Under the pieces are notes generated by a model. That model searched no databases. It saw only the letters and a list, made by a program, of their open reading frames with translations, and had not been told where the DNA came from. 64,000 nucleotides of DNA from Sphaerosporella brunnea (lineage: Eukaryota > Ascomycota > Pezizomycetes > Pezizales > Pyronemataceae). Positions 35,625 through 64,000 of the stretch are shown here, piece by piece. The position numbers and the translations under genes are program-made. The stretch spans positions 218,183 through 282,182 of the forward strand of contig VXIS01000019.1 in NCBI GenBank assembly GCA_008704415.1, written 5' to 3'. The stretch's first letter is position 1, and the number at the start of each line of letters is the position of its first letter.

Positions 35625-37971
35625 TTATTTGAACGGAGCCATCATATTCTTGCGAACCTATAAAAGAACCATTAGTGGTGAAAAGCAAAGAGTATGGTGA
35701 GAGGAGAAACTTACTGTCCACAACCGCAACCGCTTGCCGTACATATACAAGGGAATAGTAAAGAGCAAACATCCGATCTGGATTGCGCCGAGTGCAGCAA
35801 ACACCCTCTTCGAACCATCATCCGCTAGCCAGTGGTTGAAAAACAGCGAGAAAACGAAGCCGTGCAGCACGTCTACATTCCACATCAGTATCCAGTCCAC
35901 AGGTTGATAAAAGCAACATACTCTTGGAAAAGTTCAGCGTCACAAGCGCCTCACCAGCAAACTGTCTGTAGCTGTCGACGCAGAACGTGATGGCAGTCGT
36001 ACTACCCAACGAGCACCCAAAACTGATGATTCCGAAAAACACGGTGGGTACGATCCAAGAATCATGATTCTCGGCACTCCATCCGAATCCCATCAGGCCA
36101 ATCGCTGTGCATAGAGCCACAGGGATAGCCATAACGAGACGGAACTCAGGCTCGTAGATTCCACCATTCCGGCGGGCCATGAACCTGACAATGATGTCCG
36201 AGACCTTTCCGGCAACGGCTGTACCGATCACACCGCCAATGAAGGGAGAAAGGTATACGAGGCCGGTGGCGAGCGGCGAGAAGTTGTAAGGTTTGGTCTG
36301 GTAAATATGGGCCACGGATTCGGACAGAACGATAAGCCAACCGATGGAGAATGCGTAGACCACCGTGCTCCACAGAACTGCAGGGTATGCAAAAAGAACG
36401 AACGGACGGAAAGCTGCTTTCCACCATGCGACTGTCTGCTGCTTTCCTTTGTAGAGCTTCAGAGTGGACCTGAAAGTATGTGGCACCATCTTGTGAGCCT
36501 CCGTGTCCGTATCGTGATGCACAATGTCGGGTCTAACAGAAACTCCCTCGACGGGCTTCAGTCCTTCAGTACGGACATAATGGTCAAGCGATTCGCGGGA
36601 GGTCTTTCCGTGGTCCATCTGGTACACTTCTCGAGCCGTGGGGACCTCCTCAATCACACCGCCGTCTTCTTCTTCTTCATGCTTCTCGTTCATGGGTTCT
36701 GCGAACGTTGCATGGCGTCCACCGTCTGTGATTCTGTGTTCAATCTCTGCGGATATCGGAGTCTCGGTTTGGGGACGGAAATCCTTCTCGACGACAGCGT
36801 GAGGAGCATGAACTTCACGTTTCTTGGAATCCCTGGAAATTCCAGTTGCTCGCGACAAGGAAGAGGCAGCACGATGGATGAGACTCGGACGTGTAGAATG
36901 CTGCTTAGGCCGTGGGGTTCTGTCCCAAAACGTCTCCGGGACGAAGAAGAACAGGAGGAAAAAGTTGAATCCCACAACTATGGAAACGATCCAGAACACC
37001 CAGCGCCATCCCTTCGCTTGGATGATGACGGCGCTGACCAAAGGTATCAAGTTCTTTCCGCCCAGCAACAGCAGAGTGTAGATACCGATTCGGTAGGCGC
37101 GTTCATGGAGGAAGAAGATCTCGGCAATTGTGGCAGACGGCAGTGACTCGCAAGGCTGACTTTCGAGTCAGCCACAGACCGAAATGTAGAATCACGCATA
37201 GACTTACCGCCACTCCAACACCCATAACAATCCTCGCCACGACTAATGACGCATAGGATTTTGACGCGGCTGCCCATACCGACGCGGCAAGGAACAATAC
37301 GACGCCAGCAAGATACACGGGACGCTTGCCAAAGATGAGAGCTGTAGGACTCGAGATCACGCAACCGATACCAAGACCGAGCATGTAGAGACCTGCACAT
37401 CACATCCCCAACATTAGTCGGGTGCTCGGGCATGCGTGCATGGGCGTGTCGGAAGCAAGATAGCGCGGCAACGTCTGTGCAGCGCGATCCTTGCCAGAGA
37501 ATGCCGTAAAACAAACGGAGATAAGGCACCAGCCGAAGTCAAGACATACCTGTGGTCAATGCGACTTGAGGGATAGTGACACCGAAGGTGGCCGCAACCT
37601 CGTTGAATCCAGCCGCCAGAATAGGCGTCTGGCCGCCTCCCATCATGCAATGCCATCCCAGACTGAGCAATGCACAATCACGCCGCCAACCCGGCCAGTT
37701 CAGAGGGTCGTTCGGGCTCTCATCGGGCTGAGGTACGAGGATGATACCATCCGCCGTCCTTTTCCGTTCTATCTGATCGATTCCCAGTGGCTCCTGTTTT
37801 GTATCGGAAAGTAAAAGAACGGTTCCTTCGTGAGATCGTCAGCAAAAGTCCAAATTTGGCACTTTCAACACAGACGAAGGGGGGGGGGGTGGAAATCGCG
37901 AAAGAGTGCAGCATACCGGGGACTTCATCGGTATCTGCATCAAGAACTCCGAGAGTATGTCTGGGAGCCAT
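35625..37971 (-). CDS. MFS transporter, DHA1/Hol1-like (left-arm copy, one base in excess)
   Basis: Plasma-membrane drug/polyamine-type H+ antiporter, about 635 residues, 12 helices. Exons: 37971-37917, 37793-37550, 37392-37208, 37155-35922, 35872-35715 and 35657-35625. The family signature NDPLNWPGWRR precedes helix 1. Other marks are LFGKRPVYL-type loop (FGKRPVYLAGVVLFL), the segment PSATIAEIFFLHERAYRIG and LLLLGGKNLIPLVSAVII. A long hydrophilic central loop of about 150 residues (EKHEEEEDGGV) is followed by helices 7-12 (LWSTVVYAFSIGWLIVL ...). The exon sum is one nucleotide too long: a TTTT run at 37760-37763 should be TTT, as in the right-arm copy at about 62340. Corrected, all splices stay in frame. 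I judge this a sequencing error rather than a pseudogene. The substrate is unknown. The palindrome begins (as visible) inside it at 36143. Confidence 0.88.
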
Positions 37972-38501
37972 GTTTCTCCACGCGGCGGGAGAGGTGGTCT
38001 GTGAGGAAACGAACGAAGATCGAGACAAGTACAGTAGAGAATGGGATGACTCCTCGGACGTGACTGGAACAGGAAGTGGGAGGGAAAGAGGGCAGTTATA
38101 GCATGTTTCCTCCAAGGGCTAACTAGAGTACTGTGCTTCGGTACTTCTAGTGGTATGTAACCAATTTACCCCCGCTTCAGAGCTGTGTGTGTGGGGGGGG
38201 GGTTGGTTTATCGCGTCGAGCGAATATCTCAGTTGCTGACATCATAGCCGCTGACTTTGAATCTCCTCCCGGTGATCGCGGGAATAGGCCGCTAGACGGT
38301 TGCACCTGCTGCCACGAGACAGGGCCCCGCATACATGCACACACACAACCAACCCTCCCGTCTCCACAGGGCCCTTTAGTGTATTCTGCATGCAAAGCAC
38401 TCTAGTACGCAGCATTTCCGGACAGGGGTCCGTTAGGAACGCGTAGCGTGAGGCTTGGCCACAGTCGTGCATGGTGCATTGGTTGAGAAGGAGCAAGCTC
38501 A

Positions 38502-38567
38502 TTCAACCTTTCTATTGAGCAACCTTCATGATCGCCATGTTGTCTTCAACCTTTCTATTGAGCAACC
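38502..38567. repeat. 23-bp direct repeat, two copies
   Basis: TTCAACCTTTCTATTGAGCA plus ACC occurs at 38502-38524 and 38545-38567, just upstream of small gene A. The mirror copy is at about 61554-61619 in the right arm. Confidence 0.9.
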
Positions 38568-38710
38568 AGCGGTTGAACACTCATCGACACGACGAGCGAA
38601 CATCTACGGGCGACAAGGTGAGTCCGTTTAATGTCACATCATCTCTCTAACTGGCTAGAGTATTGAAGACTGACTTGCTGAATTCACGAGAACAGAGTAA
38701 TCGTCCAACC

Positions 38711-39211
38711 ATGCCCACGATTTTTAGCAAACTTGCCATTAGGGCTGCTGCTCCTCGTGTTATCTTGAGGATCCCTTCGCTTGGACACGTCGGACACAGC
38801 TCGGAGGAGACAACAGATGAGGCAACGGGTTACGGGAATGAGGGAAAGGAGAAGCCTGTCAGAGAATGACTCTATTGGAAAATATAAGTTCGCTATCATG
38901 GGTCTGCTTGGCTATAGTCTGATTTCTTGTGAGAATGTGGAATCAGGTATCAGCGAGATGAAATCGTTGTTCAAGTGGGCTGGGGGATTCGTTTTCGCGT
39001 TGGTAAGAAATAAGTGGCCTCTTTCTATCAGCCCTTACATCGACGAATGTACCAGTTTGGTGCGAATTATTACTTCGACACTACGATGGAGGCGATCGAC
39101 GATCAGGAAGGGAGGTTGAAGGGGCACATGAAGGCTGAACTGAACCAGCTTCGGCTGGAAATCCGCAATGATCGTTTGCAGGATCAGCTGAATGGAAAGG
39201 ACAGAGTTTAG
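38711..39211 (+). CDS. Small gene A: putative mitochondrial membrane/coiled-coil protein
   Basis: Not recognised. Exons 38711-38756, 38800-39002 and 39056-39211 give 134 residues. Introns are 43 nt (weak GTGTTA donor) and 53 nt (GTAAGA ... CTTAC ... CCAG). The three exons sum to a multiple of three, which supports the model. The N-terminus (MPTIFSKLAIRAAAP) is basic and could be a mitochondrial presequence. Two short hydrophobic segments follow (YKFAIMGLLGYSLIS, WAGGFVFALF), then a charged helix (MKAELNQLRLEIRNDRLQ). The 5' leader contains a conserved intron (GTGAGTCC ... CTAACTGGCTAG) nearly identical to that of gene B at 39822, so A and B are paralogs or share a duplicated promoter. Function unknown. 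Confidence 0.55.
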
Positions 39212-39341
39212 ACGTGTCTTTGGGGGGTGTTTTGTTTTTTGTTTTTTTCCATGGTGTTTGCGGGGCTTTAGACTGGTTTGGCGCATCGAACCCTTTTTTA
39301 CTTGAATCCTAATCGGCTGACTGTTAGTTTTTGCTTGTATA

Positions 39342-39467
39342 CCGCATAAACTCACAAGCAAGAGACTGGGCTAAGTCACTGCGCCATGTAGGCTTAGTGA
39401 CTTTGCCACATGGCGCAGTGACTTAGCTAGTGACGTAGCCCAGTCTCTTGCTTGTGAGTTTATGCGG
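39342..39467. mobile_element. MITE-1, 126 bp, nearly all TIR, TA-flanked
   Basis: Begins CCGCATAAACTCACAAGCAA and ends with the reverse complement; the TIR is 31 bp perfect. TA flanks both ends (39340-39341, 39468-39469). The interior AAGTCACTGCGCCATG is itself inverted, so the element is almost one hairpin. Non-autonomous, Tc1/mariner-like by TA duplication. Confidence 0.85.
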
Positions 39468-39528
39468 TACTAATTGGCTATTACTTGCATTGCTTCATGT
39501 TTTTTGTGGATTGATTACGTGATATGTA

Positions 39529-39786
39529 CTGTAGCGAGCAATGAGGTTCGAACGTCACGGGAATCGGTTCGTTATCCGTTGTGGTCTGTTCGTCACCGAA
39601 ATCTTGGCGCGAGTGCTGTGCAGTGACGCTTCGAAACGCTCAACCCGCGAGCGTTTCGTCACGACCAAGGACCGGTACGAATGCGCTCAGCGTTCGTTAG
39701 CCGGGAGTTGTCGGTTTCGCCCGGTTCGTTAATAAAAAAGTGTCTTGGCGGTCGGAATCCCGTTCGAACCTCATTGCTCGCTGCGG
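39529..39786. mobile_element. MITE-2, 258 bp, TA-flanked
   Basis: Left end CTGTAGCGAGCAATGAGGTT and right end reverse complement of CCGCAGCGAGCAATGAGGTT: a 26-bp TIR with two mismatches, flanked by TA. No transposase. Its right end lies about 30 bp before the leader intron of gene B and may supply its upstream exon. Confidence 0.8.
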
Positions 39787-39893
39787 TACACGAAGAACAA
39801 AGATTGCACAACGACAGGTGAGTCCATTTAATGTCACGTTATCTCTCTAACTGGCTAGCTAAATTCACGAGAAGTGAAAAGTAGCCGACCACC

Positions 39894-40356
39894 ATGTTCA
39901 GGCTCGTTAGCAAGCAATCGTTCAAGCCTATGGGCGTCCACTACCGTCTTCAAGTCCGCAGGGCGATCAGCAGTACTACTCCGGTGAGCTCGAAGCTTTG
40001 ATACCTTACAAACTGCTCCAACTGAGCGGCTCAGAGATGCAACACCGACGATGATAGCAATGGTCAATCCACTGGCAGTGCAGATGGTCCAATCCACCCT
40101 CCCTGGGAATCCCGGCTCTTACTACCACACAGCTGGCTCTCAGAAAGAGATGAAATCGGAGATGAATGCGAAGTTCGACAAGATGGACGCCAAGATTGAT
40201 GCGAATTTCGACAAGTTGAACACCAAGATGGATAGGGAATACGACAAGAGGATGTACTGCAAGTTTGACCGTTTGTTATACGCCATTATCGGTAGTTTTG
40301 CTACTGTTCTCTCGACAGGCGGCTTCGCCTCCTACTTGACCTGGAAGAAGCAGTAG
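39894..40356 (+). CDS. Small gene B: putative mitochondrial coiled-coil protein with C-terminal helix
   Basis: Paralog partner of gene A. Exons 39894-39983 and 40027-40356 (43-nt intron, GTGAGC ... CTTAC ... CTGAG) give 139 residues. The N-terminus is Arg/Lys-rich without acids (MFRLVSKQSFKPMGVHYRLQ) and ends RRAIS, typical of a cleaved mitochondrial presequence. The middle is a heptad-like coiled coil built of a repeat, FDKMDAKIDANFDKLNTKMD. The end is one membrane helix, LLYAIIGSFATVLSTGGFA, and WKKQ. The layout recalls the DUF1640/CCDC90 (Mcur1-like) group, but it is too short to be sure. The leader intron is shared with gene A. Confidence 0.6.
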
Positions 40357-40613
40357 AGATCCGGAGGCTGCTAAGGCATGGTAAGCGTGGTGCAGTCCAC
40401 CCGTTTGAAAAGATCGACGACTGATTGATATGTGTGGACTTGCCTTTTTTTCCATGATTAATACGGGCCGGCGCATAAAATACGGTGTTTTAGCAGGACG
40501 GTGTTACTATGGTTTTTTTTTTTTTTTGCTTATACTCTTCCATGGGTGACTGCTTCGGCTGGGCAGGTTATGTGTATAGATACATCTGTTGCTTGCTTGC
40601 TGTACGAGCTGTA

Positions 40614-41214
40614 GGGGTATTCAATTTGGCTGAAAACGGCACCATATAGGGGTCGCCGATTAGCGATAGCATAATAGGTAGTTGTAGTTGAATACCCCCA
40701 ATAAAAGATGCCTAAAATTGGGCATATTATGCGCCGTAAAAGTTGTTTCCTCTTGTCGCTTGTTTTGCGCCTGATTCCGGTGGAGCATGTGAGCCGCGAT
40801 TATGTGGAGGGCCATAATCGGTGGGCTATTTGGAGCTTTATTGATCCCCGGCCATCATTACTCGGGGGATTTTTAAGTATTGGGACACGCAGTTTACCCG
40901 GCACCCCTAACCCACGCGCTCCCCATCAAAAACAGAGCACTGCAAAACACGATTTTGTCGCAACAAAAATATGAAATTTCTAGTTCTTCATTGCCAAGCG
41001 TCTTAGAGAATAGGTACCTAGTTTTGAGATTTTAAGTAAATTTTTTGGGCAAGAAACGGTGGAGATATCATTTTTCAGGTGAGCTTTGGTTAGTGATGCC
41101 GGGTAAATTGCGTGTCCCAATACTTAAAAATCCGTCGAGTAAAATGAAAAGGCATATTATGTGCCTAAAATGAAAAGTAGACGTCCATATTCTGGTACCC
41201 AAATTGAATACCCC
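40614..41214. mobile_element. TIR element, 601 bp, host of a nested MITE
   Basis: Ends are GGGGTATTCAATTTGG and its reverse complement CCAAATTGAATACCCC (16 bp perfect). Sub-terminal GCCTAAAATTGGGCATATTA-type motifs are also inverted. I see no clear target duplication. Removing the nested element at 40861-41139 leaves about 320 bp, so it is non-autonomous. Confidence 0.75.
40861..41139. mobile_element. Nested MITE-3, 279 bp, TA-flanked
   Basis: TIRs of about 37 bp begin CTCG, then GGATTTTTAAGTATTGGGAC, and end TTTACCCGGCA, with three mismatches between ends. TA is duplicated at 40859-40860 and 41140-41141. It sits inside the 40614-41214 element and therefore inserted later. Confidence 0.85.
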
Positions 41215-42378
41215 TTGTGCTTCAAGTGCAGCTCTAAAAACGCTGCCAGATCTTCTCTAGATAAGGTTGGTGTAAGGAAAAGAGTCCCCCCGTACTTCCC
41301 CCCCTTCCCCGCACATACCTCCACCTTCCCTGATGTCCCCTAGTTTTCCCCCGATAAGCAGAGACATGTGGAGTAGTAGCAAATCACAATGTTATCCCCA
41401 TCCACATGCTCCGCCCGCAACACGTGCAAGAACCTTATCGCCCGACGGCTCGAGTGGAGGCCGGAAAGGAGGGGAGGCTGGAAACCTCGTCATCGGAGGT
41501 CCGGATCGAATAAGCGATACACGCGGCGGCATACATGAGGGGGTATGATCATGATCCATCCAGCGCTCGCCACAACCGTTCTTCAAATGAAACTCGGGTG
41601 AAACGCCTGTCGCGCTTCAAACGAAAACCATGCAGACTACCTAATGCACCCCGCAAAGCGAGTGCACATTTTCCTTTTGACGCAGAGCCAGACGGGGGGG
41701 ATATTCTTAGCAACCTGTGTCGCCTCGCCGAGGGATATAAATGAGCATTATTGACGGTCTGGCGATGTTCCGAAAAAGAAACATTGGCTGGTTACGCTTG
41801 CTCGTTTTTTTTTTTTTTTTCTCGGTTCCGCGTGCTCAACTCGCGGCACGAGCTGCCCGGATACCGCCCGTGACCGTATATGGTGACACCGAAACACAAC
41901 ATGTCACCCCAACTCCACAAAGTATGTCACCGAGAGAGAGATCTTCGCCAACTGACGGCCTTGTCCGAGACATCTGACATGCTAATCTACGTAGAGTACA
42001 CAGTTCCCGTGCGAGTTCGGCTGCATGATGTTTTTTTTCTGGGCGGGCCTCCGCATTCGTTACTCCACATTTGCATCCGAAGATCATGATGAAGAGCTGC
42101 GCGTGCATACACACATCGGCGTTCATTCAAATCGCTCTCTGTTGTAAGAGTTTCTTTGTCGGGCGTTCCAGCCGCAGGACAAATGTTGGATCGCCAGGCT
42201 CACGAGACCGGTCCGCCGTTCCGCCTGCATTGCAGCCGTCCCACACTACCTCACTCGCGAAGAGTGCAGAAATTCGAAAAGTTTAAAATCTAACCAGAAT
42301 TTTCGAAACATGTCTATTATACAACGAAATTAACGCCTCCTTGCTTCCCTCCTCCCTCTTTTTCCTACCTTGACATCA
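41215..42378. other. Intergenic
   Basis: No supported gene. C-rich and T-rich runs (41285-41345, 41808-41822). Confidence 0.5.
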
Positions 42379-44292
42379 CTATGTCGCCGTGGCAGAAACG
42401 AACTCAAATGACCGCGATGGCTCCACAGTTATAGTCGACCCATTCAAGGGCTCTGTAGTCCGTGCAGCCGCTGAGGCACTAGCAGTCGGCGTGGGCGTAA
42501 TATCTGCCGCTGTCGAGCTTTGGAACTTAGCAGTAGTAGTCGCAGTAGTAGTAGTAGGACCGATTTTCGAATCGAACGTTCTAGTCGGAACAGCGGCGGT
42601 TTCGGTGGGGGTTACGACCGCGTCGGAACATGTGGTAGTACTTTCTGCCGGCCGTTGAGTCGATGTCACCGCTGCGGCGGTTCTCGCCCTCGTGCGACTC
42701 GACGTGGAAGTGGTTGTTGCCCCCGCAGCCGTAGTGCTAGCAGTGATGATGGGAAACTCGGTCGGATTCACAGGCTCAAACGAGCGCGATGGGATATCCG
42801 CGATAGAAGTTTGCCCCGACGATGCGGCAGTGGTGGTTGGTTCTACAGGCTGCTGCTGCGCCGCTGTGCTACTGGCAGTTCTGGTTCTGTTTTTGCGGCC
42901 GGTTTTTCTGCGGGTTATGGTTGAGGCTGAGGTTGCAGTGGTGATTGGGAAGTCGGTGGGGTCTGCTGGCTCGAAGGTGCGCGTTGGGAGTGCGGCGGTT
43001 GAGGTTGGGAATACTGCTGTCCCGGAGGGCCCTGTGGGGGCAGTGTGGGCTATGCATGTAGTATCCGCCAGCTGTGTCTCTGCGGCCGTAGACGTGGTTC
43101 CCGCCACCGCAGTGGTGGGGGTGATGATTGGGAACTCAGTGGGGTTCACGGGCTCAAAGCTTCTGCTCGGAATATCCGCAGTCGACGTTTGTCCCACGGT
43201 GCTGGTGGCTTCCGCTAATTGCGTACAGGAAGTGCTGGCACCCGCCGCCGCCGTACTAAGTTCCACGCAAGCAAAACTCATCGCTTTTGTCAACCCTGGA
43301 GCCTTTGTGTACGACCAACATAGCTTCGTACCGATGGGCACGATATTGCTAGTAACGTAGATGTTCCCCGCGGTGGTGGCTGCCCCAACAAGTTCTCCGG
43401 TGCGTTTTATCACCTGCAGCTGTGTATTTGCGATGCCGGTGCCAGATACAGTCTCCCAAGTGAGAAGGGCGTAGTCACTATCGAAAGCCGCAGCATGAAC
43501 GTTCCTGTGCTGCGTGCTGTTCTCCTGCGTAATGTTTGTACTCGCGGTTTCGGACGTCTGGGTGTCTACCAGTGATACGGCTATGTTGCTGGGAGACCCG
43601 TACTCATGTGCCACGAGGTAGGTAGTTGTGTTCGGGAAATGTGTTAGGCTGGGACTACTGCTCGAGGCTGCGATTCGTTTACCCGCGACCCAGACGACGC
43701 CTTGGGGGTCTATACAGCCAGTTGTGGTGGTGTTGCAGTTGGTGGAATGTGGTTCCTGCCTGAGTTGAAGAATGTTGTCGAGGGAGCGCTTGACTTTCGT
43801 GGAGTCACCGCCGTCGACGGCTACGACGAGGCTGTTGGGATCACCTTTTTTCAAAGCTATGCTGCTCACTGCACCAAGTCTCCGTCAGAAACTGGAATAT
43901 CACAGAAGGACGTGGAGGAAGTATAATTTACCTCCAGTGGCACTCTGGATCACAGTTGGCTCCCCCACCGCTTGAAAATCTGCGGTATTGAACTTTTGGA
44001 CCAGAACGGAGTCGTAACCATCCGCTGATACGAACGCGATCCAACCATTTGTTCCGTCCGCCGATAGCTTTCCATTGCCATTCGTAAACATCACATCCTG
44101 CCAGCTTTAGGAATCCCAGAACCAACTCACTGTGAAAGGGGTACTTCGATGCTGACTTGTCCCGTTAACGACCGGATCAAAAGCTTCGCTCAGTTTTAAC
44201 ACATCCGGAAACGTCGTGAAGTCCGTGGCCTGTGCTTGCACCACAGCGGCGCTTGCTGTAAACACCAGGGCAAAAAAACGAGTGGATATCAT
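42379..44292 (-). CDS. Secreted Thr/Ser-rich repeat protein (left-arm copy)
   Basis: Not recognised by family. Exons 44292-44131, 44097-43932 and 43868-42379 give 605 residues. Introns are 33 nt (exceptionally short) and 63 nt; lengths sum to a multiple of three. A signal peptide is clear: MISTRFFALVFTASAAVVQA, then QA. Residues about 23-240 form a mixed beta-type ectodomain (SADGYDSVLVQKFNTADFQ; SDYALLTWETVSGTG). From about 255 to the end the protein is a Thr/Ser/Ala-rich stalk containing four spaced copies of a motif P[ST]R[ST]FEP[VA][ND]PTEFPI and two shorter ones. There is no C-terminal hydrophobic GPI signal. This suggests an O-mannosylated secreted or cell-wall protein. The copy in the other arm is 55866-57779 with the same 496-codon main exon. 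Confidence 0.8.
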
Positions 44293-46435
44293 TGTTTACA
44301 AAACTAAAAGAAAGGAACGAGAGGTAGCTACGCTCACCAGGAGAAGAAGCAGGGCAAGTAAAAAACTAAAAGAACGTATGTACTATCTACTTAGGAAGTA
44401 TGTATGTGCCTGCACAGGGTAGTGGATGAAAACAGCAGCAACAGCGGAACCGTAACATCTCAAATGCCAGCGAAGGCGGATCCGCTGTGGTTATGAACCT
44501 GACAATCGGCCCATAGCTTTTCAAACCCCCCGGGTCGGCTCGGTGCTGTTGAAAGAAGGTGCAATAGCTTAGTGAGTGTGGTGAGACCTGATCAGGTTTG
44601 AGATTAAGGAGAGGCGGGGATGAGGAGGTTGATAAACCCTAGCCCTGGTCGAGAAAGCGATCCGAGGATTTCCACTGGGCCTGGTCGTCACGGGTCTCAT
44701 TCCTTCTGAAGCTGGTAACTCGACTCCTTCAAATTTGCTCTGGTGAATCAAACGAGAGGGAAAACTTCATGCATTTTCTTTGCAACTGCCTGAACCAATC
44801 TAGTAGCGGCGTTATAATTTGCGGGCAATGCACCTACAATAGCCATGGAGGAAGTGCAACAGGAATCTGGTAGAACAGTACTAGTTTAAGGAGTTTCGTT
44901 GGAGACGTTTTCGGCCACTCCTCTTTGATGTTGATAGGTTCCAGGAACTTAAAAGTCGGTCTCTGTAAACACTTTTGTTCCTTTGTGGTGCTTAGAAGTA
45001 CCGTAGAATCCCGGAGAAGTATCTGTTTTTGGAAGAAAATAAAGTCTTTGCGGCCATGAAAGCTAGAAACGCGTGGGCGCTGGGAGACAGAAGGAGACGG
45101 ATTGGCCTCATATTCGTGTCGTCGCCCGCGTCTCCCTCTGTTTAGGTTTCGCCGGGGCTTCGACAGCTCGTCCGCACTATAAAGTACACTTTTGGGCGCA
45201 GCTGCGTTATCACCAAATTTCTATGGTAGCGGGCGGATAGTTGTGAGCATGGGACTGTCGACAACATTCTACATTCGGTCGGCTAGTGGTCGAGCTTTCG
45301 CATTTGCAAACATAGATACCGAGCTTATACGGTTTTCTACGGGTACACTTTGAAAAGTAAGAGCAAAATCAAACCCTTTCAAATAAAATTGGCGAGGCGG
45401 TGAGTGACAGAGCGTGAGGATGTGCTTATTTTTGCGTTTGGGGAACCTCATGGCCTCTCAGCGTCGGCGCCCCTCGTCCTCGCCTTTCGCACAACCTCCC
45501 TCGCTGCCCAGGCAACTTCAGCCTGTCCTTTGACGATAGCCCAACCTCAACGTCCCAGTATTCCATGAATTCTTGAAGCTCACTGAGCTCAATGTTAAGC
45601 CCGATCCAACATCCGACAAGAGCACATACATCAGACGGGGGAGCTGAGGCTTCAAATGCTTTGAGGATTTCAGGATCAGGAAGACGAGACAAATTGAATA
45701 CTAGTAGGCACTTGAATTGTGTAGAATTATGGTGTATGTCGGATGAATTACTGTATCTACTGCTAATGAGTTGGATGGTGATTGGAGTGCTTTTATAGCT
45801 TTGCGGCTCGGTGTACGGATATTGCAACCGCTCGACATTTTCAGCAGCTCAAGGCACTCGTCGCTCCTTGGAGTTGATGCCATCACCGGCTGAAGCTGCC
45901 TGGTCCCCCGCACCTTCAAAATGACATCCTGGGCTGCGTTCGTCAGCTTGACAATCCCATATTAAGCTTTTATGCATGCTTACACTTTGGAAAACAAACA
46001 TCTAACGTTCGTTCTACAGCCGGCTATACTATTTAATCATCGTTAGATAACGGTAATCCTCGACCCCATTAGAGAGTTTGCTTAAATCCCAAATCGAACA
46101 TCTCAACCCCGATGCTGGCACTCAACATACGACGGCTCGGCGCAAATAGAATGAACCTGTAAGGGCGGCTTTATGGGAGATCTAGAGTAACGTTCAAAAG
46201 CTTAGCGCAAACATGGAATTTAAGCATGCAGCGCAAAATCTCTTAGTATTTGCAATTCAAAAGCCAAAAATCCAACAGAGACCAGTCAGGTACAAAATTC
46301 CAGACCGTGCCCATCGCGTCTGAACAAACCCCGAGTGACTCGCTGTGCGTCGTTGCCACGCCAACCGCCGCGCTAAGAGCAAAGCTACTCGAGCAAACAT
46401 CCGCCGCCTAGGGAGCTCACAAGCACACACTCACA
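44293..46435. other. Intergenic, with an uncertain ORF remnant
   Basis: A minus-strand frame of 133 codons at 45426-45827 (PDPEILKAFEASAPPS ... LSELQEFMEYWDVEVG) contains a GTATGT donor-like site exactly where the two arms differ by one T, so it may be part of a spliced gene. An upstream frame (KVRGTRQLQPVMASTPRSD) could belong to it. I cannot support a complete model. The same stretch is mirrored at 53722-55865. Confidence 0.35.
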
Positions 46436-47202
46436 ATGACGACGCCCGCGCCGCCGCCGCCGCAGCCGCCGCCGCTGATGCTGCACCACCTGCAAGCACC
46501 ACCGCAGCTGCAGCATCTGCAAGCATTGCACCACCAGCAGCAGCCGCCACATCCGCAGCAACGGCTTCCCTCTCCGTCGCAGCCGCCGCCGCAGCGGCCG
46601 CCGCAGCGACAACCCCCCAGCAGCGCAATCAACCCAACCAGCGCGCTTCAACTCCTACCCTCTATGTTTCACGCCGTGGTACATTCCCCTGTCTCCTCCC
46701 TCACGCGCCATCTTACTAACGCAGCGGCTTCTCGCAGCTCTGCCAAACCGCCGACGTCTTCAACTCCCCGCAGCGCCAACACCCGCGCGCTGTGTTGTAC
46801 ACAAACGCGCAGCTGCACGCGAGCATACCCGCGCTGTACGACCGCTTCCACTACGGGCTGGATATACTAGAGTACGAGATTGTGCGCGCCAAGGTGACGC
46901 TGCATAGGGATCTGGTGGTGTTGCGGAAGCAGCGAATGATTGAAGAGGAGTTGCGCAGGAAGGAGGAGGAGCTGTCGCGTCGCGAGAGGGAGCAGATAGA
47001 GCTTGAGAAAGGGGTGGATGATAGCGGTAGGGATCAACAGCAGCAACAGCAGCCACAGCAGCGGTTTGCGGATTTCCGGGATAGCACACCAGTTGACACC
47101 ACCACAACTAGCAGCAGCAGCACCGCCGTCGAACAGCCGACGGAGGATTTGGAAGACGAGGGTGCAGATATGGGGAGGTTTGACGATTTATTTGAGTACT
47201 AG
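46436..47202 (+). CDS. Q/P-rich coiled-coil protein with acidic tail (left-arm copy)
   Basis: Not recognised. Exons 46436-46678 and 46738-47202 give 235 residues; the 59-nt intron has a CTAAC branch and CGCAG acceptor. The first 80 residues are almost only Pro, Gln, His and Leu. The conserved-looking core is QTADVFNSPQRQHPRAVLYT, then ASIPALYDRFHYGLDILEYE, then IVRAKVTLHRDLVVLRKQR. It continues into a highly charged coiled coil (EEELRRKEEELSRREREQ), a Gln run and an acidic end (GRFDDLFEY). The composition suggests a nuclear transcription or chromatin co-factor, which is inference only. The mirror copy 52955-53721 encodes the same protein. Direction is opposite to TAF14 (convergent, 0.95 kb between stops). 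Confidence 0.7.
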
Positions 47203-52954: not shown

Positions 52955-53721
52955 CTAGTACTCAAATAAATCGTCAAACCTCCCCATATCTGCACCCTCG
53001 TCTTCCAAATCCTCCGTCGGCTGTTCGACGGCGGTGCTGCTGCTGCTAGTTGTGGTGGTGTCAACTGGTGTGCTATCCCGGAAATCCGCAAACCGCTGCT
53101 GTGGCTGCTGTTGCTGCTGTTGATCCCTACCGCTATCATCCACCCCTTTCTCAAGCTCTATCTGCTCCCTCTCGCGACGCGACAGCTCCTCCTCCTTCCT
53201 GCGCAACTCCTCTTCAATCATTCGCTGCTTCCGCAACACCACCAGATCCCTATGCAGCGTCACCTTGGCGCGCACAATCTCGTACTCTAGTATATCCAGC
53301 CCGTAGTGGAAGCGGTCGTACAGCGCGGGTATGCTCGCGTGCAGCTGCGCGTTTGTGTACAACACAGCGCGCGGGTGTTGGCGCTGCGGGGAGTTGAAGA
53401 CGTCGGCGGTTTGGCAGAGCTGCGAGAAGCCGCTGCGTTAGTAAGATGGCGCGTGAGGGAGGAGACAGGGGAATGTACCACGGCGTGAAACATAGAGGGT
53501 AGGAGTTGAAGCGCGCTGGTTGGGTTGATTGCGCTGCTGGGGGGTTGTCGCTGCGGCGGCCGCTGCGGCGGCGGCTGCGACGGAGAGGGAAGCCGTTGCT
53601 GCGGATGTGGCGGCTGCTGCTGGTGGTGCAATGCTTGCAGATGCTGCAGCTGCGGTGGTGCTTGCAGGTGGTGCAGCATCAGCGGCGGCGGCTGCGGCGG
53701 CGGCGGCGCGGGCGTCGTCAT
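52955..53721 (-). CDS. Q/P-rich coiled-coil protein (right-arm copy)
   Basis: Mirror of 46436-47202; exons 53721-53479 and 53419-52955, same 235 residues, no frame change seen. See the left-arm entry. Confidence 0.7.
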
Positions 53722-55865
53722 TGTGAGTGTGTGCTTGTGAGCTCCCTAGGCGGCGGATGTTTGCTCGAGTAGCTTTGCTCTTAGCGCGGCGGTTGGCGTG
53801 GCAACGACGCACAGCGAGTCACTCGGGGTTTGTTCAGACGCGATGGGCACGGTCTGGAATTTTGTACCTGACTGGTCTCTGTTGGATTTTTGGCTTTTGA
53901 ATTGCAAATACTAAGAGATTTTGCGCTGCATGCTTAAATTCCATGTTTGCGCTAAGCTTTTGAACGTTACTCTAGATCTCCCATAAAGCCGCCCTTACAG
54001 GTTCATTCTATTTGCGCCGAGCCGTCGTATGTTGAGTGCCAGCATCGGGGTTGAGATGTTCGATTTGGGATTTAAGCAAACTCTCTAATGGGGTCGAGGA
54101 TTACCGTTATCTAACGATGATTAAATAGTATAGCCGGCTGTAGAACGAACGTTAGATGTTTGTTTTCCAAAGTGTAAGCATGCATAAAAGCTTAATATGG
54201 GATTGTCAAGCTGACGAACGCAGCCCAGGATGTCATTTTGAAGGTGCGGGGGACCAGGCAGCTTCAGCCGGTGATGGCATCAACTCCAAGGAGCGACGAG
54301 TGCCTTGAGCTGCTGAAAATGTCGAGCGGTTGCAATATCCGTACACCGAGCCGCAAAGCTATAAAAGCACTCCAATCACCATCCAACTCATTAGCAGTAG
54401 ATACAGTAATTCATCCGACATACACCATAATTCTACACAATTCAAGTGCCTACTAGTATTCAATTTGTCTCGTCTTCCTGATCCTGAAATCCTCAAAGCA
54501 TTTGAAGCCTCAGCTCCCCCGTCTGATTGTATGTGCTCTTGTCGGATGTTGGATCGGGCTTAACATTGAGCTCAGTGAGCTTCAAGAATTCATGGAATAC
54601 TGGGACGTTGAGGTTGGGCTATCGTCAAAGGACAGGCTGAAGTTGCCTGGGCAGCGAGGGAGGTTGTGCGAAAGGCGAGGACGAGGGGCGCCGACGCTGA
54701 GAGGCCATGAGGTTCCCCAAACGCAAAAATAAGCACATCCTCACGCTCTGTCACTCACCGCCTCGCCAATTTTATTTGAAAGGGTTTGATTTTGCTCTTA
54801 CTTTTCAAAGTGTACCCGTAGAAAACCGTATAAGCTCGGTATCTATGTTTGCAAATGCGAAAGCTCGACCACTAGCCGACCGAATGTAGATATGTTGTCG
54901 ACAGTCCCATGCTCACAACTATCCGCCCGCTACCATAGAAATTTGGTTGATAACGCAGCTGCGCCCAAAAGTGTACTTATAGTGCGGACGAGCTGTCGAA
55001 GCCCCGGCGAAACCTAAACAGAGGGAGACGCGGGGCGACGACACGAATATGAGGCCAATCCGTCTCCTTCTGTCTCCCAGCGCCCACGCGTTTCTAGCTT
55101 TCATGCCGCAAAGACTTTATTTTCTTCCAAAACAGATACTTCTCCGGGATTCTACGGTACTTCTAAGCACCACAAAGGAACAAAAGTGTTTACAGAGACC
55201 GACTTTTAAGTTCCTGGAACCTATCAACATCAAAGAGGAGTGGCCGAAAACGTCTCCAACGAAACTCCTTAAACTAGTACTGTTCTACCAGATTCCTGTT
55301 GCACTTCCTCCATGGCTATTGTAGGTGCATTGCCCGCAAATTATAACGCCGCTACTAGATTGGTTCAGGCAGTTGCAAAGAAAATGCATGAAGTTTTCCC
55401 TCTCGTTTGATTCACCAGAGCAAATTTGAAGGAGTCGAGTTACCAGCTTCAGAAGGAATGAGACCCGTGACGACCAGGCCCAGTGGAAATCCTCGGATCG
55501 CTTTCTCGACCAGGGCTAGGGTTTATCAACCTCCTCATCCCCGCCTCTCCTTAATCTCAAACCTGATCAGGTCTCACCACACTCACTAAGCTATTGCACC
55601 TTCTTTCAACAGCACCGAGCCGACCCGGGGGGTTTGAAAAGCTATGGGCCGATTGTCAGGTTCATAACCACAGCGGATCCGCCTTCGCTGGCATTTGAGA
55701 TGTTACGGTTCCGCTGTTGCTGCTGTTTTCATCCACTACCCTGTGCAGGCACATACATACTTCCTAAGTAGATAGTACATACGTTCTTTTAGTTTTTTAC
55801 TTGCCCTGCTTCTTCTCCTGGTGAGCGTAGCTACCTCTCGTTCCTTTCTTTTAGTTTTGTAAACA
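53722..55865. other. Intergenic (mirror of 44293-46435)
   Basis: Carries the mirrored uncertain ORF (54330-54732, here with one extra T at about 54528). No further gene seen. Confidence 0.4.
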
Positions 55866-57779
55866 ATGATATCCACTCGTTTTTTTGCCCTGGTGTTTAC
55901 AGCAAGCGCCGCTGTGGTGCAAGCACAGGCCACGGACTTCACGACGTTTCCGGATGTGTTAAAACTGAGCGAAGCTTTTGATCCGGTCGTTAACGGGACA
56001 AGTCAGCATCGAAGTACCCCTTTCACAGTGAGTTGGTTCTGGGATTCCTAAAGCTGGCAGGATGTGATGTTTACGAATGGCAATGGAAAGCTATCGGCGG
56101 ACGGAACAAATGGTTGGATCGCGTTCGTATCAGCGGATGGTTACGACTCCGTTCTGGTCCAAAAGTTCAATACCGCAGATTTTCAAGCGGTGGGGGAGCC
56201 AACTGTGATCCAGAGTGCCACTGGAGGTAAATTATACTTCCTCCACGTCCTTCTGTGATATTCCAGTTTCTGACGGAGACTTGGTGCAGTGAGCAGCATA
56301 GCTTTGAAAAAAGGTGATCCCAACAGCCTCGTCGTAGCCGTCGACGGCGGTGACTCCACGAAAGTCAAGCGCTCCCTCGACAACATTCTTCAACTCAGGC
56401 AGGAACCACATTCCACCAACTGCAACACCACCACAACTGGCTGTATAGACCCCCAAGGCGTCGTCTGGGTCGCGGGTAAACGAATCGCAGCCTCGAGCAG
56501 TAGTCCCAGCCTAACACATTTCCCGAACACAACTACCTACCTCGTGGCACATGAGTACGGGTCTCCCAGCAACATAGCCGTATCACTGGTAGACACCCAG
56601 ACGTCCGAAACCGCGAGTACAAACATTACGCAGGAGAACAGCACGCAGCACAGGAACGTTCATGCTGCGGCTTTCGATAGTGACTACGCCCTTCTCACTT
56701 GGGAGACTGTATCTGGCACCGGCATCGCAAATACACAGCTGCAGGTGATAAAACGCACCGGAGAACTTGTTGGGGCAGCCACCACCGCGGGGAACATCTA
56801 CGTTACTAGCAATATCGTGCCCATCGGTACGAAGCTATGTTGGTCGTACACAAAGGCTCCAGGGTTGACAAAAGCGATGAGTTTTGCTTGCGTGGAACTT
56901 AGTACGGCGGCGGCGGGTGCCAGCACTTCCTGTACGCAATTAGCGGAAGCCACCAGCACCGTGGGACAAACGTCGACTGCGGATATTCCGAGCAGAAGCT
57001 TTGAGCCCGTGAACCCCACTGAGTTCCCAATCATCACCCCCACCACTGCGGTGGCGGGAACCACGTCTACGGCCGCAGAGACACAGCTGGCGGATACTAC
57101 ATGCATAGCCCACACTGCCCCCACAGGGCCCTCCGGGACAGCAGTATTCCCAACCTCAACCGCCGCACTCCCAACGCGCACCTTCGAGCCAGCAGACCCC
57201 ACCGACTTCCCAATCACCACTGCAACCTCAGCCTCAACCATAACCCGCAGAAAAACCGGCCGCAAAAACAGAACCAGAACTGCCAGTAGCACAGCGGCGC
57301 AGCAGCAGCCTGTAGAACCAACCACCACTGCCGCATCGTCGGGGCAAACTTCTATCGCGGATATCCCATCGCGCTCGTTTGAGCCTGTGAATCCGACCGA
57401 GTTTCCCATCATCACTGCTAGCACTACGGCTGCGGGGGCAACAACCACTTCCACGTCGAGTCGCACGAGGGCGAGAACCGCCGCAGCGGTGACATCGACT
57501 CAACGGCCGGCAGAAAGTACTACCACATGTTCCGACGCGGTCGTAACCCCCACCGAAACCGCCGCTGTTCCGACTAGAACGTTCGATTCGAAAATCGGTC
57601 CTACTACTACTACTGCGACTACTACTGCTAAGTTCCAAAGCTCGACAGCGGCAGATATTACGCCCACGCCGACTGCTAGTGCCTCAGCGGCTGCACGGAC
57701 TACAGAGCCCTTGAATGGGTCGACTATAACTGTGGAGCCATCGCGGTCATTTGAGTTCGTTTCTGCCACGGCGACATAG
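55866..57779 (+). CDS. Secreted Thr/Ser-rich repeat protein (right-arm copy)
   Basis: Mirror of 42379-44292. Exons 55866-56027, 56061-56226 and 56290-57779; introns 33 nt (GTGAGT ... GGCAG) and 63 nt (GTAAAT ... GTGCAG). 605 residues, with the same signal peptide, ectodomain and Thr/Ser stalk. Both copies are intact. Confidence 0.8.
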
Positions 57780-58940
57780 TGATGTCAAGGTAGGAAAAAG
57801 AGGGAGGAGGGAAGCAAGGAGGCGTTAATTTCGTTGTATAATAGACATGTTTCGAAAATTCTGGTTAGATTTTAAACTTTTCGAATTTCTGCACTCTTCG
57901 CGAGTGAGGTAGTGTGGGACGGCTGCAATGCAGGCGGAACGGCGGACCGGTCTCGTGAGCCTGGCGATCCAACATTTGTCCTGCGGCTGGAACGCCCGAC
58001 AAAGAAACTCTTACAACAGAGAGCGATTTGAATGAACGCCGATGTGTGTATGCACGCGCAGCTCTTCATCATGATCTTCGGATGCAAATGTGGAGTAACG
58101 AATGCGGAGGCCCGCCCAGAAAAAAAACATCATGCAGCCGAACTCGCACGGGAACTGTGTACTCTACGTAGATTAGCATGTCAGATGTCTCGGACAAGGC
58201 CGTCAGTTGGCGAAGATCTCTCTCTCGGTGACATACTTTGTGGAGTTGGGGTGACATGTTGTGTTTCGGTGTCACCATATACGGTCACGGGCGGTATCCG
58301 GGCAGCTCGTGCCGCGAGTTGAGCACGCGGAACCGAGAAAAAAAAAAAAAAACGAGCAAGCGTAACCAGCCAATGTTTCTTTTTCGGAACATCGCCAGAC
58401 CGTCAATAATGCTCATTTATATCCCTCGGCGAGGCGACACAGGTTGCTAAGAATATCCCCCCCGTCTGGCTCTGCGTCAAAAGGAAAATGTGCACTCGCT
58501 TTGCGGGTGCATTAGGTAGTCTGCATGGTTTTCGTTTGAAGCGCGACAGGCGTTTCACCCGAGTTTCATTTGAAGAACGGTTGTGGCGAGCGCTGGATGG
58601 ATCATGATCATACCCCCTCATGTATGCCGCCGCGTGTATCGCTTATTCGATCCGGACCTCCGATGACGAGGTTTCCAGCCTCCCCTCCTTTCCGGCCTCC
58701 ACTCGAGCCGTCGGGCGATAAGGTTCTTGCACGTGTTGCGGGCGGAGCATGTGGATGGGGATAACATTGTGATTTGCTACTACTCCACATGTCTCTGCTT
58801 ATCGGGGAAAACTAGGGGACATCAGGGAAGGTGGAGGTATGTGCGGGGAAGGGGGGGAAGTACGGGGGGACTCTTTTCCTTACACCAACCTTATCTAGAG
58901 AAGATCTGGCAGCGTTTTTAGAGCTGCACTTGAAGCACAA
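57780..58940. other. Intergenic (mirror of 41215-42378)
   Basis: No supported gene. Confidence 0.5.
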
Positions 58941-59537
58941 GGGGTATTCAATTTGGGTACCAGAATATGGACGTCTACTTTTCATTTTAGGCACATAATA
59001 TGCCTTTTCATTTTACTCGACGGATTTTTAAGTATTGGGACACGCAATTTACCCGGCATCACTAACCAAAGCTCACCTGAAAAATGATATCTCCACCGTT
59101 TCTTGCCCAAAAAATTTACTTAAAATCTCAAAACTAGGTACCTATTCTCTAAGACGCTTGGCAATGAAGAACTAGAAATTTCATATTTTTGTTGCGACAA
59201 AATCGTGTTTTGCAGTGCTCTGTTTTTGATGGGGAGCGCGTGGGTTAGGGGTGCCGGGTAAACTGCGTGTCCCAATACTTAAAAATCCCCCGAGTAATGA
59301 TGGCCGGGGATCAATAAAGCTCCAATAGCCCACCGATTATGGCCCTCCACATAATCGCGGCTCACATGCTCCACCGGAATCAGGCGCAAACAAGCGACAA
59401 GAGGAACAACTTTACGGCGCATATATGCCCAATTTTAGGCATCTTTTATTGGGGGTATTCACTACAACTACCTATTATGCTATCCGCTAATCGGCGACCC
59501 CTATTATGGTGCCGTTTTCAGCCAAATTGAATACCCC
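58941..59537. mobile_element. TIR element, right-arm copy
   Basis: Mirror of 40614-41214, four bases shorter; same 16-bp ends. Confidence 0.75.
59016..59294. mobile_element. Nested MITE-3, right-arm copy
   Basis: Mirror of 40861-41139, equal length of 279 bp, TA on both sides. Confidence 0.85.
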
Positions 59538-59777
59538 TACAGCTCGTACAGCAAGCAAGCACAGATGTATCTATACACATAACCTGCCCAGCCGAAGCAG
59601 TCACCCATGGAAGAGTATAAGCAACCATAGTACACCGTCCTGCTAAAACACCGTATTTTATGCGCCGCCGTATTAATCATGGAAAAAAAGGCAGTCCACA
59701 CATATCAATCAGTCGTCGATCTTTTCAAACGGGTGGACTGCACCACGCTTACCATGCCTTAGCAGCCTCCGGATCTC

Positions 59778-60234
59778 TACTGCTTCTTCCAGGTCAAGTA
59801 GGAGGCGAAGCCGCTGTCGAGAGAACAGTAGCAAAACTACCGATAATGGCGTATAACAAACGGTCAAACTTGCAGTACATCCTCTTGTCGTATCCTATCC
59901 ATCTTGGTGTTCAACTTGTCGAAATTCGCATCAATCTTGGCGTCCATCTTGTCGAACTTCGCATCATCTCCGATTTCATCTCTTTCTGAGAGCCAGCTGT
60001 GTGGTAGTAAGAGCCGGGATTCCCAGGGAGGGTGGATTGGACCATCTGCACTGCCAGTGGATTGACCATTGCTATCATCGTCGGTGTTGCATCTCTGAGC
60101 CGCTCAGTTGGAGCAGTTGTAAGGTATCAAAGCTTCGAGCTCACCGGAGTAGTACTGCTGATCGCCCTGCGGACTTGAAGACGGTAGTGGACGCCCATAG
60201 GCTTGAACGATTGCTTGCTAACGAGCCTGAACAT
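59778..60234 (-). pseudogene. Small gene B, right-arm copy, frameshifted
   Basis: Mirror of 39894-40356. Lacks one A near 59965 (GATGATGCG for GATGAATGCG) and one G near 59813 (ACAGCGGC for ACAGGCGGC), which break the coiled coil and the terminal helix. The pattern suggests sequencing error. Confidence 0.6.
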
Positions 60235-60340
60235 GGTGGTCGGCTACTTTCACTTCTCGTGAATTTAGCTAGCCAGTTAGAGAGATAACGTGACATTAAA
60301 TGGACTCACCTGTCGTTGTGCAATCTTTGTTCTTCGTGTA

Positions 60341-60595
60341 CCGCAGCGAGCAATGAGGTTCGAACGGGATTCCGACCGCCAAGACACTTTTTTATTAACG
60401 AACGGGCGAAACCGACAACTCCCGGCTAACGAACGCTGAGCGCATTCGTACCGGTCCTGGTCGTGACGAAACGCTCGCGGGTTGAGCGTTTCGAAGCGTC
60501 ACTGCACAGCACTCGCGCCAAGATTTCGGTGACGAACAGACCACAACGGATAACGAACCGATTCCGTGACGTTCGAACCTCATTGCTCGCTACAG
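60341..60595. mobile_element. MITE-2, right-arm copy
   Basis: Mirror of 39529-39786, three bases shorter. Confidence 0.8.
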
Positions 60596-60656
60596 TACAT
60601 ATCACGTAATCAATCCACAAAAAACATGAAGCAATGCAAGTAATAGCCAATTAGTA

Positions 60657-60781
60657 CCGCATAAACTCACAAGCAAGAGACTGGGCTACGTCACTAGCTA
60701 AGTCACTGCGCCATGTGGCAAAGTCACTAAGCCTACATGGCGCAGTGACTTAGCCCAGTCTCTTGCTTGTGAGTTATGCGG
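60657..60781. mobile_element. MITE-1, right-arm copy
   Basis: Mirror of 39342-39467, one T shorter in the TIR (GAGTTATGCGG for GAGTTTATGCGG). Confidence 0.85.
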
Positions 60782-60910
60782 TATACAAGCAAAAACTAAC
60801 AGTCAGCCGATTAGGATTCAAGTAAAAAAGGGTCGATGCGCCAAACCAGTCTAAAGCCCCGCAAACACCATGGAAAAAAACAAAAAACAAAACACCCCCC
60901 AAAGACACGT

Positions 60911-61410
60911 CTAAACTCTGTCCTTTCCATTCAGCTGATCCTGCAAACGATCATTGCGGATTTCCAGCGAAGCTGGTTCAGTTCAGCCTTCATGTGCCCC
61001 TTCAACCTCCCTTCCTGATCGTCGATCGCCTCCATCGTAGTGTCGAAGTAATAATTCGCACCAAACTGGTACATTCGTCGATGTAAGGGCTGATAGAAAG
61101 AGGCCACTTATTTCTTACCAACGCGAAAACGAATCCCCCAGCCCACTTGAACAACGATTTCATCTCGCTGATACCTGATTCCACATTCTCACAAGAAATC
61201 AGACTATAGCCAAGCAGACCCATGATAGCGAACTTATATTTTCCAATAGAGTCATTCTCTGACAGGCTTCTCCTTTCCCTCATTCCCGTAACCCGTTGCC
61301 TCATCTGTTGTCTCCTCCGAGCTGTGTCCGACGTGTCCAAGCGAAGGGATCCTCAAGATAACACGAGGAGCAGCAGCCCTAATGGCAAGTTTGCTAAAAA
61401 TCGTGGGCAT
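60911..61410 (-). pseudogene. Small gene A, right-arm copy, frameshifted
   Basis: Mirror of 38711-39211. One G is missing near 60968 (CTTCGCTGG for CTTCGGCTGG) within the last exon. Otherwise the same exon layout. Confidence 0.55.
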
Positions 61411-62143
61411 GGTTGGACGATTACTCTGTTCTCGTGAATTCAGCAAGTCAGTCTTCAATACTCTAGCCAGTTAGAGAGATGATGTGACATTAAACGGACT
61501 CACCTTGTCGCCCGTAGATGTTCGCTCGTCGTGTCGATGAGTGTTCAACCGCTGGTTGCTCAATAGAAAGGTTGAAGACAACATGGCGATCATGAAGGTT
61601 GCTCAATAGAAAGGTTGAATGAGCTTGCTCCTTCTCAACCAATGCACCATGCACGACTGTGGCCAAGCCTCACGCTACGCGTTCCTAACGGACCCCTGTC
61701 CGGAAAATGCTGCGTACTAGAGTGCTTGCATGCAGAATACACTAAGGCCCTGTGGAGACGGGAGGGTTGGTTGTGTGTGTGCATGTATGCGGGGCCCTGT
61801 CTCGTGGCAGCAGGTGCAACCGTCTAGCGGCCTATTCCCGCGATCACCGGGAGGAGATTCAAAGTCAGCGGCTATGATGTCAGCAACTGAGATATTCGCT
61901 CGACGCGATAAACCAACACACACACACAGCTCTGAAGCGGGGGTAAATTGGTTACATACCACTAGAAGTACCGAAGCACAGTACTCTAGTTAGCCCTTGG
62001 AGGAAAACATGCTATAACTGCCCTCTTTCCCTCCCACTTCCTGTTCCAGTCACGTCCGAGGAGTCATCCCATTCTCTACTGTACTTGTCTCGATCTTCGT
62101 TCGTTTCCTCACAGACCACCTCTCCCGCCGCGTGGAGAAACAT
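61411..62143. other. Intergenic (mirror of 37972-38710)
   Basis: Promoter side of the MFS gene and gene A. The counterpart of a G10 run at 38191-38200 is missing here, one of the larger differences between the arms. No gene seen. Confidence 0.5.
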
Positions 62144-64000
62144 GGCTCCCAGACATACTCTCGGAGTTCTTGATGCAGATACCGATGAAGTCCCCGGTAT
62201 GCTGCACTCTTTCGCGATTTCCACTTCGTCTGTGTTGAAAGTGCCAAATTTGGACTTTTGCTGACGATCTCACGAAGGAACCGTTCTTTTACTTTCCGAT
62301 ACAAAACAGGAGCCACTGGGAATCGATCAGATAGAACGGAAAGGACGGCGGATGGTATCATCCTCGTACCTCAGCCCGATGAGAGCCCGAACGACCCTCT
62401 GAACTGGCCGGGTTGGCGGCGTGATTGTGCATTGCTCAGTCTGGGATGGCATTGCATGATGGGAGGCGGCCAGACGCCTATTCTGGCGGCTGGATTCACG
62501 AGGTTGCGGCCACCTTCGGTGTCACTATCCCTCAAGTCGCATTGACCACAGGTACGTCTCGACCTTCGGTCTTGTGTGCCTCATCTCCGTTTGTTTTTAA
62601 TACGCAATTCTCTGGACAAGGATTCGCGCTGCACAAGACGTTGCGCGCGCTATCTCTGCTCCAGACACGCCCATGCACGCATGCCCGAGCACCCGACTAG
62701 AATGTTGGGGGATGTGGTATGTGTGCAGTCTCTACATGCGCGGTCTCGGTATCGGTTGCGTGATCTCGTAGTCCTACAGCTCTCCTCTTTGGCACAGCGT
62801 GCACGGGTACTCTGCTGGCGTCGTATTGTTCCTTGCCGCGTCGGTATGGGCAGCCGCGTCAAAATCCATGCGTCATAGTCGTTTGGCGAGGGATGTTCAT
62901 GGGTAGTTGGAGTGGCGGTAAGTCTCATTGCTGTGATTCTACAATTCGCGTCTGTGGATGACTCGAAAGTCGCCTTGCGAGTCACTGCCGTCTGCCACAC
63001 ATTGGCGAGATCTTCATTCCTCCTTGAGTACGCGCCTACCGAATCGGTATCTACACTCTGCTGTTGCTGGCGGAAAGAACTTGAGTACCTTTGGTCAGAG
63101 CGCGTCACAGCATCCAAGCGAAAGGGATGGCGCTGGGCTGTCTGGATTCGTTCCATAGTTGTGGGCTTGTCAACTTTCATCCTCTGTTCTCTCTTCGTCA
63201 CGGAGACGTTTGGGACAGACACCCCACGTGCCTAAGCAGCATCTACCGTCCGGGTCCTCATCCATCGTGCTGCCATCTTCCTTGTCGCGAGCAACTGGAA
63301 TTTCCAGGGATTTCAAGAACAAAACGTGAAGTTCATGACTCTCACGCTGTCGTCGAGAAGGATTTCCGTCCCCAAACCGAGACTCCGATATCCGCAGAGA
63401 TTGAACACAGAATCACAGACGGTGGACGCCATGCAACGTTCGCAGAACCCATGAACGAGAAGCATGAAGAAGAAGAAGACGGCGGTGTGATTGAGGAGGT
63501 CCCCGCTCGAGAAGTGTACCAGATGGACCACGGAAAGACCTCCCGCGAATCGCTTGACCATTATGTCCGTACTGAAGGACTGAAGCCCGTCGAGGGGAGT
63601 TTCTGTTAAGACCCGACATTGTGCATCACGATACGGACACGGAGGCTCACAAGATGTGCCCACATACTTTCAGGTCCACTTGAAGCTCTACAAAAGGAAA
63701 GCAGCAGACAGTCGCATGGTGGAAAAGCAGCTTTCCGTCCGCGTTTTCTTTTGCATACCCTGCAGTCGGGAGCACGGTGGTCTACGCATTCTCCATCGGT
63801 TGGCTTATCGTTCTGTCCGAATCCGTGGGCCATATTTACCAGACCAAACTTACAAAACTTCTCGCCGCTCGCCACCGGCCTCGTATACCTTTCTACCTTC
63901 ATTGGCGGTGTGATCGGTACACGGCCGTTGCGGAAAGGGTCTCGGACATCCATTGTCAGGTTCATGGCCGCCGGAATGGTGGAATCTACGAGCCTGAGTT
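62144..64000 (+). pseudogene. MFS transporter, right-arm copy, many indels, incomplete
   Basis: Mirror of 35625-37971. The first two exons are in frame (the AAA run at about 62340 lacks the extra base of the left copy, so DGIILVPQPDESPNDPLNWP reads correctly). From about 62490 onward, indels and substitutions occur every 10-30 bases. Examples: CCACTTGAAG for CCACTCTGAAG near 63675 and GTTAAGACCC for GTTAGACCC near 63605. The frame is lost. The gene runs past the window end. Confidence 0.85.

Follow-up and report, generated by a model that had tools for sequence, protein, structure and literature searches.

The 64,000-nucleotide stretch of the Sphaerosporella brunnea genome analysed here (the window; positions 218183-282182 of contig VXIS01000019.1, C101 below) ends in a large palindrome, whose two arms mirror each other around a short unpaired centre that lies within a repeated, LINE-like element. 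Judged from the sequence, this palindrome is almost certainly an assembly artefact at the contig end, produced by a folded read, and very probably absent from the organism; this assessment covers a folded read in general, whatever caused the fold. The initial annotation of the window had set two readings side by side, a real inverted duplication and a foldback chimera that extends a contig. We favour the chimera, because the contig ends inside an arm, because the arms differ in the manner of read errors, because a gene is broken in the right arm, and because copies of the element elsewhere in the genome run straight through the turning point. The real inverted duplication is not supported.

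The mirror was recovered by two types of alignment. Comparison of the whole window with itself by BLAST gave one single inverted match of ~14 kb (36143-50057 against 50093-64000; 98.54% identity over 13,999 columns, with 29 mismatches and 175 gaps), which leaves a centre of 35 bases (50058-50092) unpaired. In a global alignment of one arm with the other, 13,798 of the 14,002 columns were identical, with 23 mismatches and 133 gap events that comprised 181 gap bases. A single 14-kb match at such identity is not chance. Both alignments agree with the initial annotation in placing the palindrome at 36143..64000, with a 35-bp centre. It had also described a nearly perfect mirror up to the last base of the window; the sequence is indeed mirrored throughout, with the refinement that the differences are mostly short insertions or deletions (indels) and are very unevenly spread. 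C101 is 282,182 bases long, so the contig ends exactly at window position 64000, inside the right arm, and no unique DNA follows the mirror. Where the contig ends had been proposed as a check, with an end soon after 64 kb named as refuting a real duplication. The coordinates of the palindrome and of the features within it are collected in Table 1.

Table 1. Features of the palindrome in the window, and copies of the LINE-like element on other contigs.
Feature	Position	Strand	Remarks
Left arm	36143..50057	+	Joined to unique flank; inverted match to 50093-64000; MFS gene intact at far end
Centre	50058..50092		35 bases; element sequence continuous with right arm; 50055-50389 matches C534 element
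Right arm	50093..64000	-	Reverse-complement, probable second reading of 36143-50057; stops at contig end
Tail resembling raw-read quality	62093..64000		Over 1,950 columns: indel events, 85; substitutions, 22
LINE-like element, apparent 5' end, left arm	49764..50057	+	Matches C534 and C341 copies
LINE-like element, mirrored end, right arm	50093..50389	-	99% identical to C534 copy
MFS transporter gene (PF07690), unbroken	35628..37971	-	All except 3' end inside left arm; 449-aa ORF; PF07690 E 6.4e-23
MFS transporter gene, right-arm copy	62142..63998	+	Broken by frame changes and cut by contig end; P0001 matches in pieces
YEATS-domain exons, left copy	48737..49052	-	PF03366; two matches above cut-off, one with internal TGA
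YEATS-domain exons, mirrored copy	51102..51417	+	PF03366; scores equal to left copy
LINE-like element copies elsewhere	L010 4630-7783 (C534); L013 (C341); L022 (C124)

The way in which the two arms differ is informative. The ordinary build-up of mutations along the arms that would be expected of a real duplication was not seen: over the 12,000 bases of the right arm that lie nearest the centre, the global alignment contained 48 indel events and only 1 substitution. The last 1,908 bases of the same arm contained 85 indel events and 22 substitutions. Relative to the left arm, this tail carried 71 extra bases, lacked 41 and had 22 changed, a difference of ~7% over 1,949 columns. Over the whole arm alignment, 91 of the 133 gap events adjoined an identical base, and transitions made up 7 of the 23 substitutions. 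Gene copies that diverge within a genome gather substitutions; the pattern between these arms resembles what would be expected of a long read whose end was poorly corrected.

Gaps were also found in the left arm. In the stretch next to the centre, where both arms can be compared with copies of the repeated element on contigs C534 and C341, the left arm had 6 gaps against the C534 copy and 5 against the C341 copy, while the right arm had 1 and 0, respectively; mismatches were equal. As the excess of gaps switches to the left arm near the centre, neither arm is simply the diverged copy. The right arm has its errors towards the contig end and the left arm next to the turn, which would be expected if both were imperfect readings of one sequence, and their differences do look like those between two noisy readings. 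We have taken the left arm as genuine chromosomal sequence, except for some uncorrected indels near the centre.

The MFS transporter gene at the outer end of the arms is unbroken in the left arm and broken in the right. A 646-residue database protein (P0001, from a 2,266-base contig) served as the yardstick for both copies. The left copy gave one match of 414 residues at 99.5%, together with four more that covered the remainder of the protein. The right copy matched the same protein in five pieces, in three frames (56%, 41%, 77%, 60% and 89%, of which the pieces at 56% and 41% were the longest two). The open reading frame (ORF) has 449 codons in the left arm, against 174 codons for the longest of its right-arm pieces that were listed as ORFs. 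The nearest named relatives of this protein were from Tricharina, Pyronema and Wilcoxina (among the best 120 of 2,542 matches). Both arms also carry an ORF of 501 residues and the exons of a YEATS-domain gene; besides this mirrored pair on C101, the genome has a third YEATS locus, on C344. The initial annotation had reported two copies of TAF14. A YEATS-domain gene, a candidate TAF14, is indeed present in both arms, as judged by its YEATS domain.

What lies at the turning point? The palindrome turns ~0.3 kb into a repeated element, counted from what appears to be its 5' end. We named this element long interspersed nuclear element (LINE)-like because its C534 copy carries an Exo_endo_phos_2 endonuclease domain downstream. 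The C534 and C341 copies of this element, which have ~2.1 kb in common at 98.9%, run straight through the turning point. The right arm together with the centre (50055-50389) matched the C534 element in 333 of 336 columns. The left arm matched the element up to the turn at 50057; as the centre forms an imperfect palindrome of its own, BLAST extended this match to 50087, with the mismatches in clusters. At the junction there is an overlap of 3 bases (GTC/GAC). Folded alone, the 35-base centre reached -7 kcal/mol, and 13 of 200 shuffled sequences folded equally well. A stretch of 51 bases that spans the centre folded at -16 kcal/mol, with none of 200 shuffles as good, but the outer stem of this fold is the palindrome itself, and we rejected the centre as a special hairpin.

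The LINE-like family has many copies in the genome and ~60% G+C. Two of its copies come very close to the one on C534 (98.9% and 99.7% identity), and the family may be recently active. Copies of the element were searched for the true course of the locus past the turn; the one on C124 lies within a contig of 280,952 bases and so need not be joined to the left arm. The turn sits in a repeat with many genomic copies, which would fit a wrong join by the assembler between two inverted copies of the element from different loci. A join of this kind would, however, bring in a different locus, whereas the mirror runs ~13.6 kb past the element into the same single-copy locus, and we consider it extremely improbable. 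A twin-priming inversion, a mechanism known for LINEs, was ruled out, as the mirror takes in this ~13.6 kb of flank outside the element.

The favoured explanation, a folded read, can be set out as follows. One long-read library fragment of ~14 kb would have had one end inside the repeated LINE-like element, and would have been sequenced first on one strand and, on the way back, on the other. The fold could have been caused by a snap-back hairpin that closed the fragment end, or by an unrecognised sequencing adapter; in the latter case, polishing with normal reads from the element would later have turned the adapter letters into element sequence. Both causes fit, and they are inseparable here. 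The assembler, stalled at the repeated element, may then have used the folded read to extend the contig, which would turn at 50058-50092 and retrace itself as far as the end of that read, at 64000. We infer that one or a few reads carry the right arm. The true locus would most likely run on through the remainder of the element and continue on another contig.

The published Sb_GMNB300 genome was sequenced from mycelium derived from a single spore, using PacBio 10-kb low-input libraries at ~908x, and assembled with Falcon, finisherSC and Arrow into 51,598,955 bases in 872 contigs, according to the part of the genome announcement consulted (PMC6908789). For the sequence data of the genome and the transcriptome, the announcement gives the accessions SRP214822 and SRP215074 jointly; the strain is NRRL 66913. 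The genome that we searched comprised 50,565,648 bases in 640 contigs. A particular form of the artefact is that whole-genome amplification ahead of library preparation made the inverted molecule, which was then sampled by several reads. It is well documented that palindromic reads turn up after amplification (PMC6218980), a low-input protocol was used for the library, and a 13.9-kb arm that exceeds the nominal 10-kb library size would fit such a molecule. No amplification step is named in that part of the announcement, though (PMC6908789), and we regard this form as unlikely, accounting for a small share of the folded-read explanation.

In the stretches queried, the assembly gave no sign of a further copy of the locus. 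DNA from the arm end (36100-38200) matched the genome twice, each time on C101 (both of 2 candidates scored). A mid-arm query had two full-length matches, again both on C101, as well as 39 short repeat matches (best 40 of 78 candidates). The left flank next to the palindrome (34650-36142) and two more distant stretches of it (28000-30500 and 13800-16800) each had a single full-length match, on C101, besides short matches (best 40 of 927 candidates for the first; both of 2 candidates for each of the others). Thus, the arm end and the three flank queries revealed no second assembled copy that would extend the mirror beyond the contig end, although a collapsed copy would be invisible to such searches. 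The right side of the palindrome is the contig end, and a right flank could lie elsewhere, on a contig not linked to this one. No run of at least two TTAGGG or CCCTAA telomere units was found in the window, nor in 40 contig starts of 400 bases.

These results bear on the main alternative, in which the palindrome is a real and recent chromosomal inverted duplication that arose by snap-back or breakage-fusion from the LINE-like element, with its outer boundary unassembled. The 3-base overlap and the weak fold of the centre could also come from snap-back priming in cells, and some animals, such as Folsomia candida, have large palindromes that were reported to be real (in the part of the report consulted; PMC5490193). 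However, a real duplication is difficult to reconcile with the scarcity of substitutions relative to indel events over 12 kb, with an error-rich tail that lies exactly at the contig end, with the broken MFS gene in the right arm, or with a flank beyond the arm that has a single full-length place in each of the three queries. A duplication present in only some nuclei is less expected, since the mycelium came from a single spore (PMC6908789). We therefore consider a real duplication very unlikely. That some nuclei, or the whole strain, have a terminal inverted duplication primed by snap-back ~0.3 kb inside a LINE-like element, and that the 5' ends of these elements thus seed chromosome-arm palindromes in this fungus, is just as unlikely.

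The absence of a C-to-T pattern between the arms had been raised in the initial annotation, since long duplications are expected to be mutated by repeat-induced point mutation (RIP) in many Pezizomycotina. We compared thirteen copies of the element with the C534 copy and counted changes in the two transition directions. The two closest copies (99.7% and 98.9% identical to C534) had 1 versus 1 and 2 versus 3 such changes, which are small numbers, and no excess of C-to-T was seen in either. Older copies ranged from balanced (81 versus 87; 126 versus 121) to an excess in one direction (242 versus 158, in a copy ~65% identical), and RIP could conceivably have acted on old copies in the past. As the two closest copies of the element lack a sign of RIP, one cannot presume that this genome subjects young duplicates to it, and its absence between the arms says little. 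The argument from missing RIP has little force. RIP was also unusable as a clock for the palindrome, as near-identical copies show few, balanced changes.

Several points weigh against a folded read. The library is nominally of 10 kb, shorter than the 13.9-kb arm (PMC6908789), and a real palindrome longer than the reads could likewise give a contig that ends inside an arm. A copy of the flank that had been collapsed in the assembly would escape searches of the assembly. No other foldbacks were found in the first 10 kb of 3 of the 640 contigs and in six further stretches, a sample too small to count either way; the 40 contig starts of 400 bases were set only against one another. An adapter remnant was not found at the centre, which matches the C534 element instead, and this counts against the plain adaptor-skip form of the explanation. 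Finally, in the part consulted of the Breakinator survey, foldbacks were mainly from nanopore reads and almost none were present in three PacBio samples (HiFi, Mas-Seq and Iso-Seq; PMC12870357), a finding that counts mildly against a common cause in PacBio data. A 119-base self-inverted match (93%) was present on C570, a small contig (L087 5678-5796).

The window contains further features besides those of the palindrome. An ORF of 1,331 codons (13760-17755, forward strand) contains tandem repeats at ~17115-17423 that encode a repeated peptide of the ALDDGQG type. From a motif, this ORF may encode a cellular RNA-dependent RNA polymerase. Just outside the palindrome, weak RNase H and zf-RVT matches under the curated cut-offs (33812-34612, forward strand) probably mark an old retrotransposon remnant. 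Next to it, a dispersed short repeat of ~200 bases (34650-34860) has many genomic matches at 80-93% (best 40 of 927 candidates). Within the arms, a short imperfect inverted repeat at 39340-39469, mirrored at 60655-60783, is ~78% self-complementary and is possibly a hairpin like those of miniature inverted-repeat transposable elements.

If the palindrome is a folded read, the gene models between 50.06 and 64.0 kb (YEATS, the 501-residue ORF, the broken MFS gene and others) would be spurious duplicates that should not be interpreted, and 50058-64000 should be trimmed ahead of work on gene families or synteny. Two of the signs used here, arm differences that are dominated by indels and unevenly spread, and mirroring that continues right up to the contig end, need no reads and could be used on other assemblies.

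Comparable structures have been described, and we compared the palindrome with them on the basis of the parts of these reports that were available. In BIGMAC, palindromes in contigs are treated as a strong signal of misassembly, arising from long reads in which the adaptor was skipped (PMC5084376). The present case is similar in that the contig aligns over a long distance to its own reverse complement, in a pattern that would be inherited from a chimeric long read. It differs from a plain adaptor skip in that the centre is element sequence and not foreign; this could be explained by a snap-back end, or by polishing with normal reads of the element. As with the foldback reads detected by Breakinator, a nearly perfect palindromic read would be able to tangle the assembly graph, although those cases were mainly from nanopore reads (PMC12870357) and the present genome appears to derive from PacBio reads (PMC6908789). 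Pacasus corrects palindromic reads that follow amplification, and the cases treated by it, artificial inverted duplications in both long reads and contigs, would resemble ours (PMC6218980). In contrast to those cases, amplification is not named for the S. brunnea library in the consulted part of its announcement (PMC6908789). The palindromes reported as real in Folsomia candida, a rotifer and the human Y also have a gene order that is mirrored about the centre (PMC5490193). Unlike these, the palindrome described here has an arm that is cut by the contig end, and arms that differ by what looks like indel noise rather than by substitutions.

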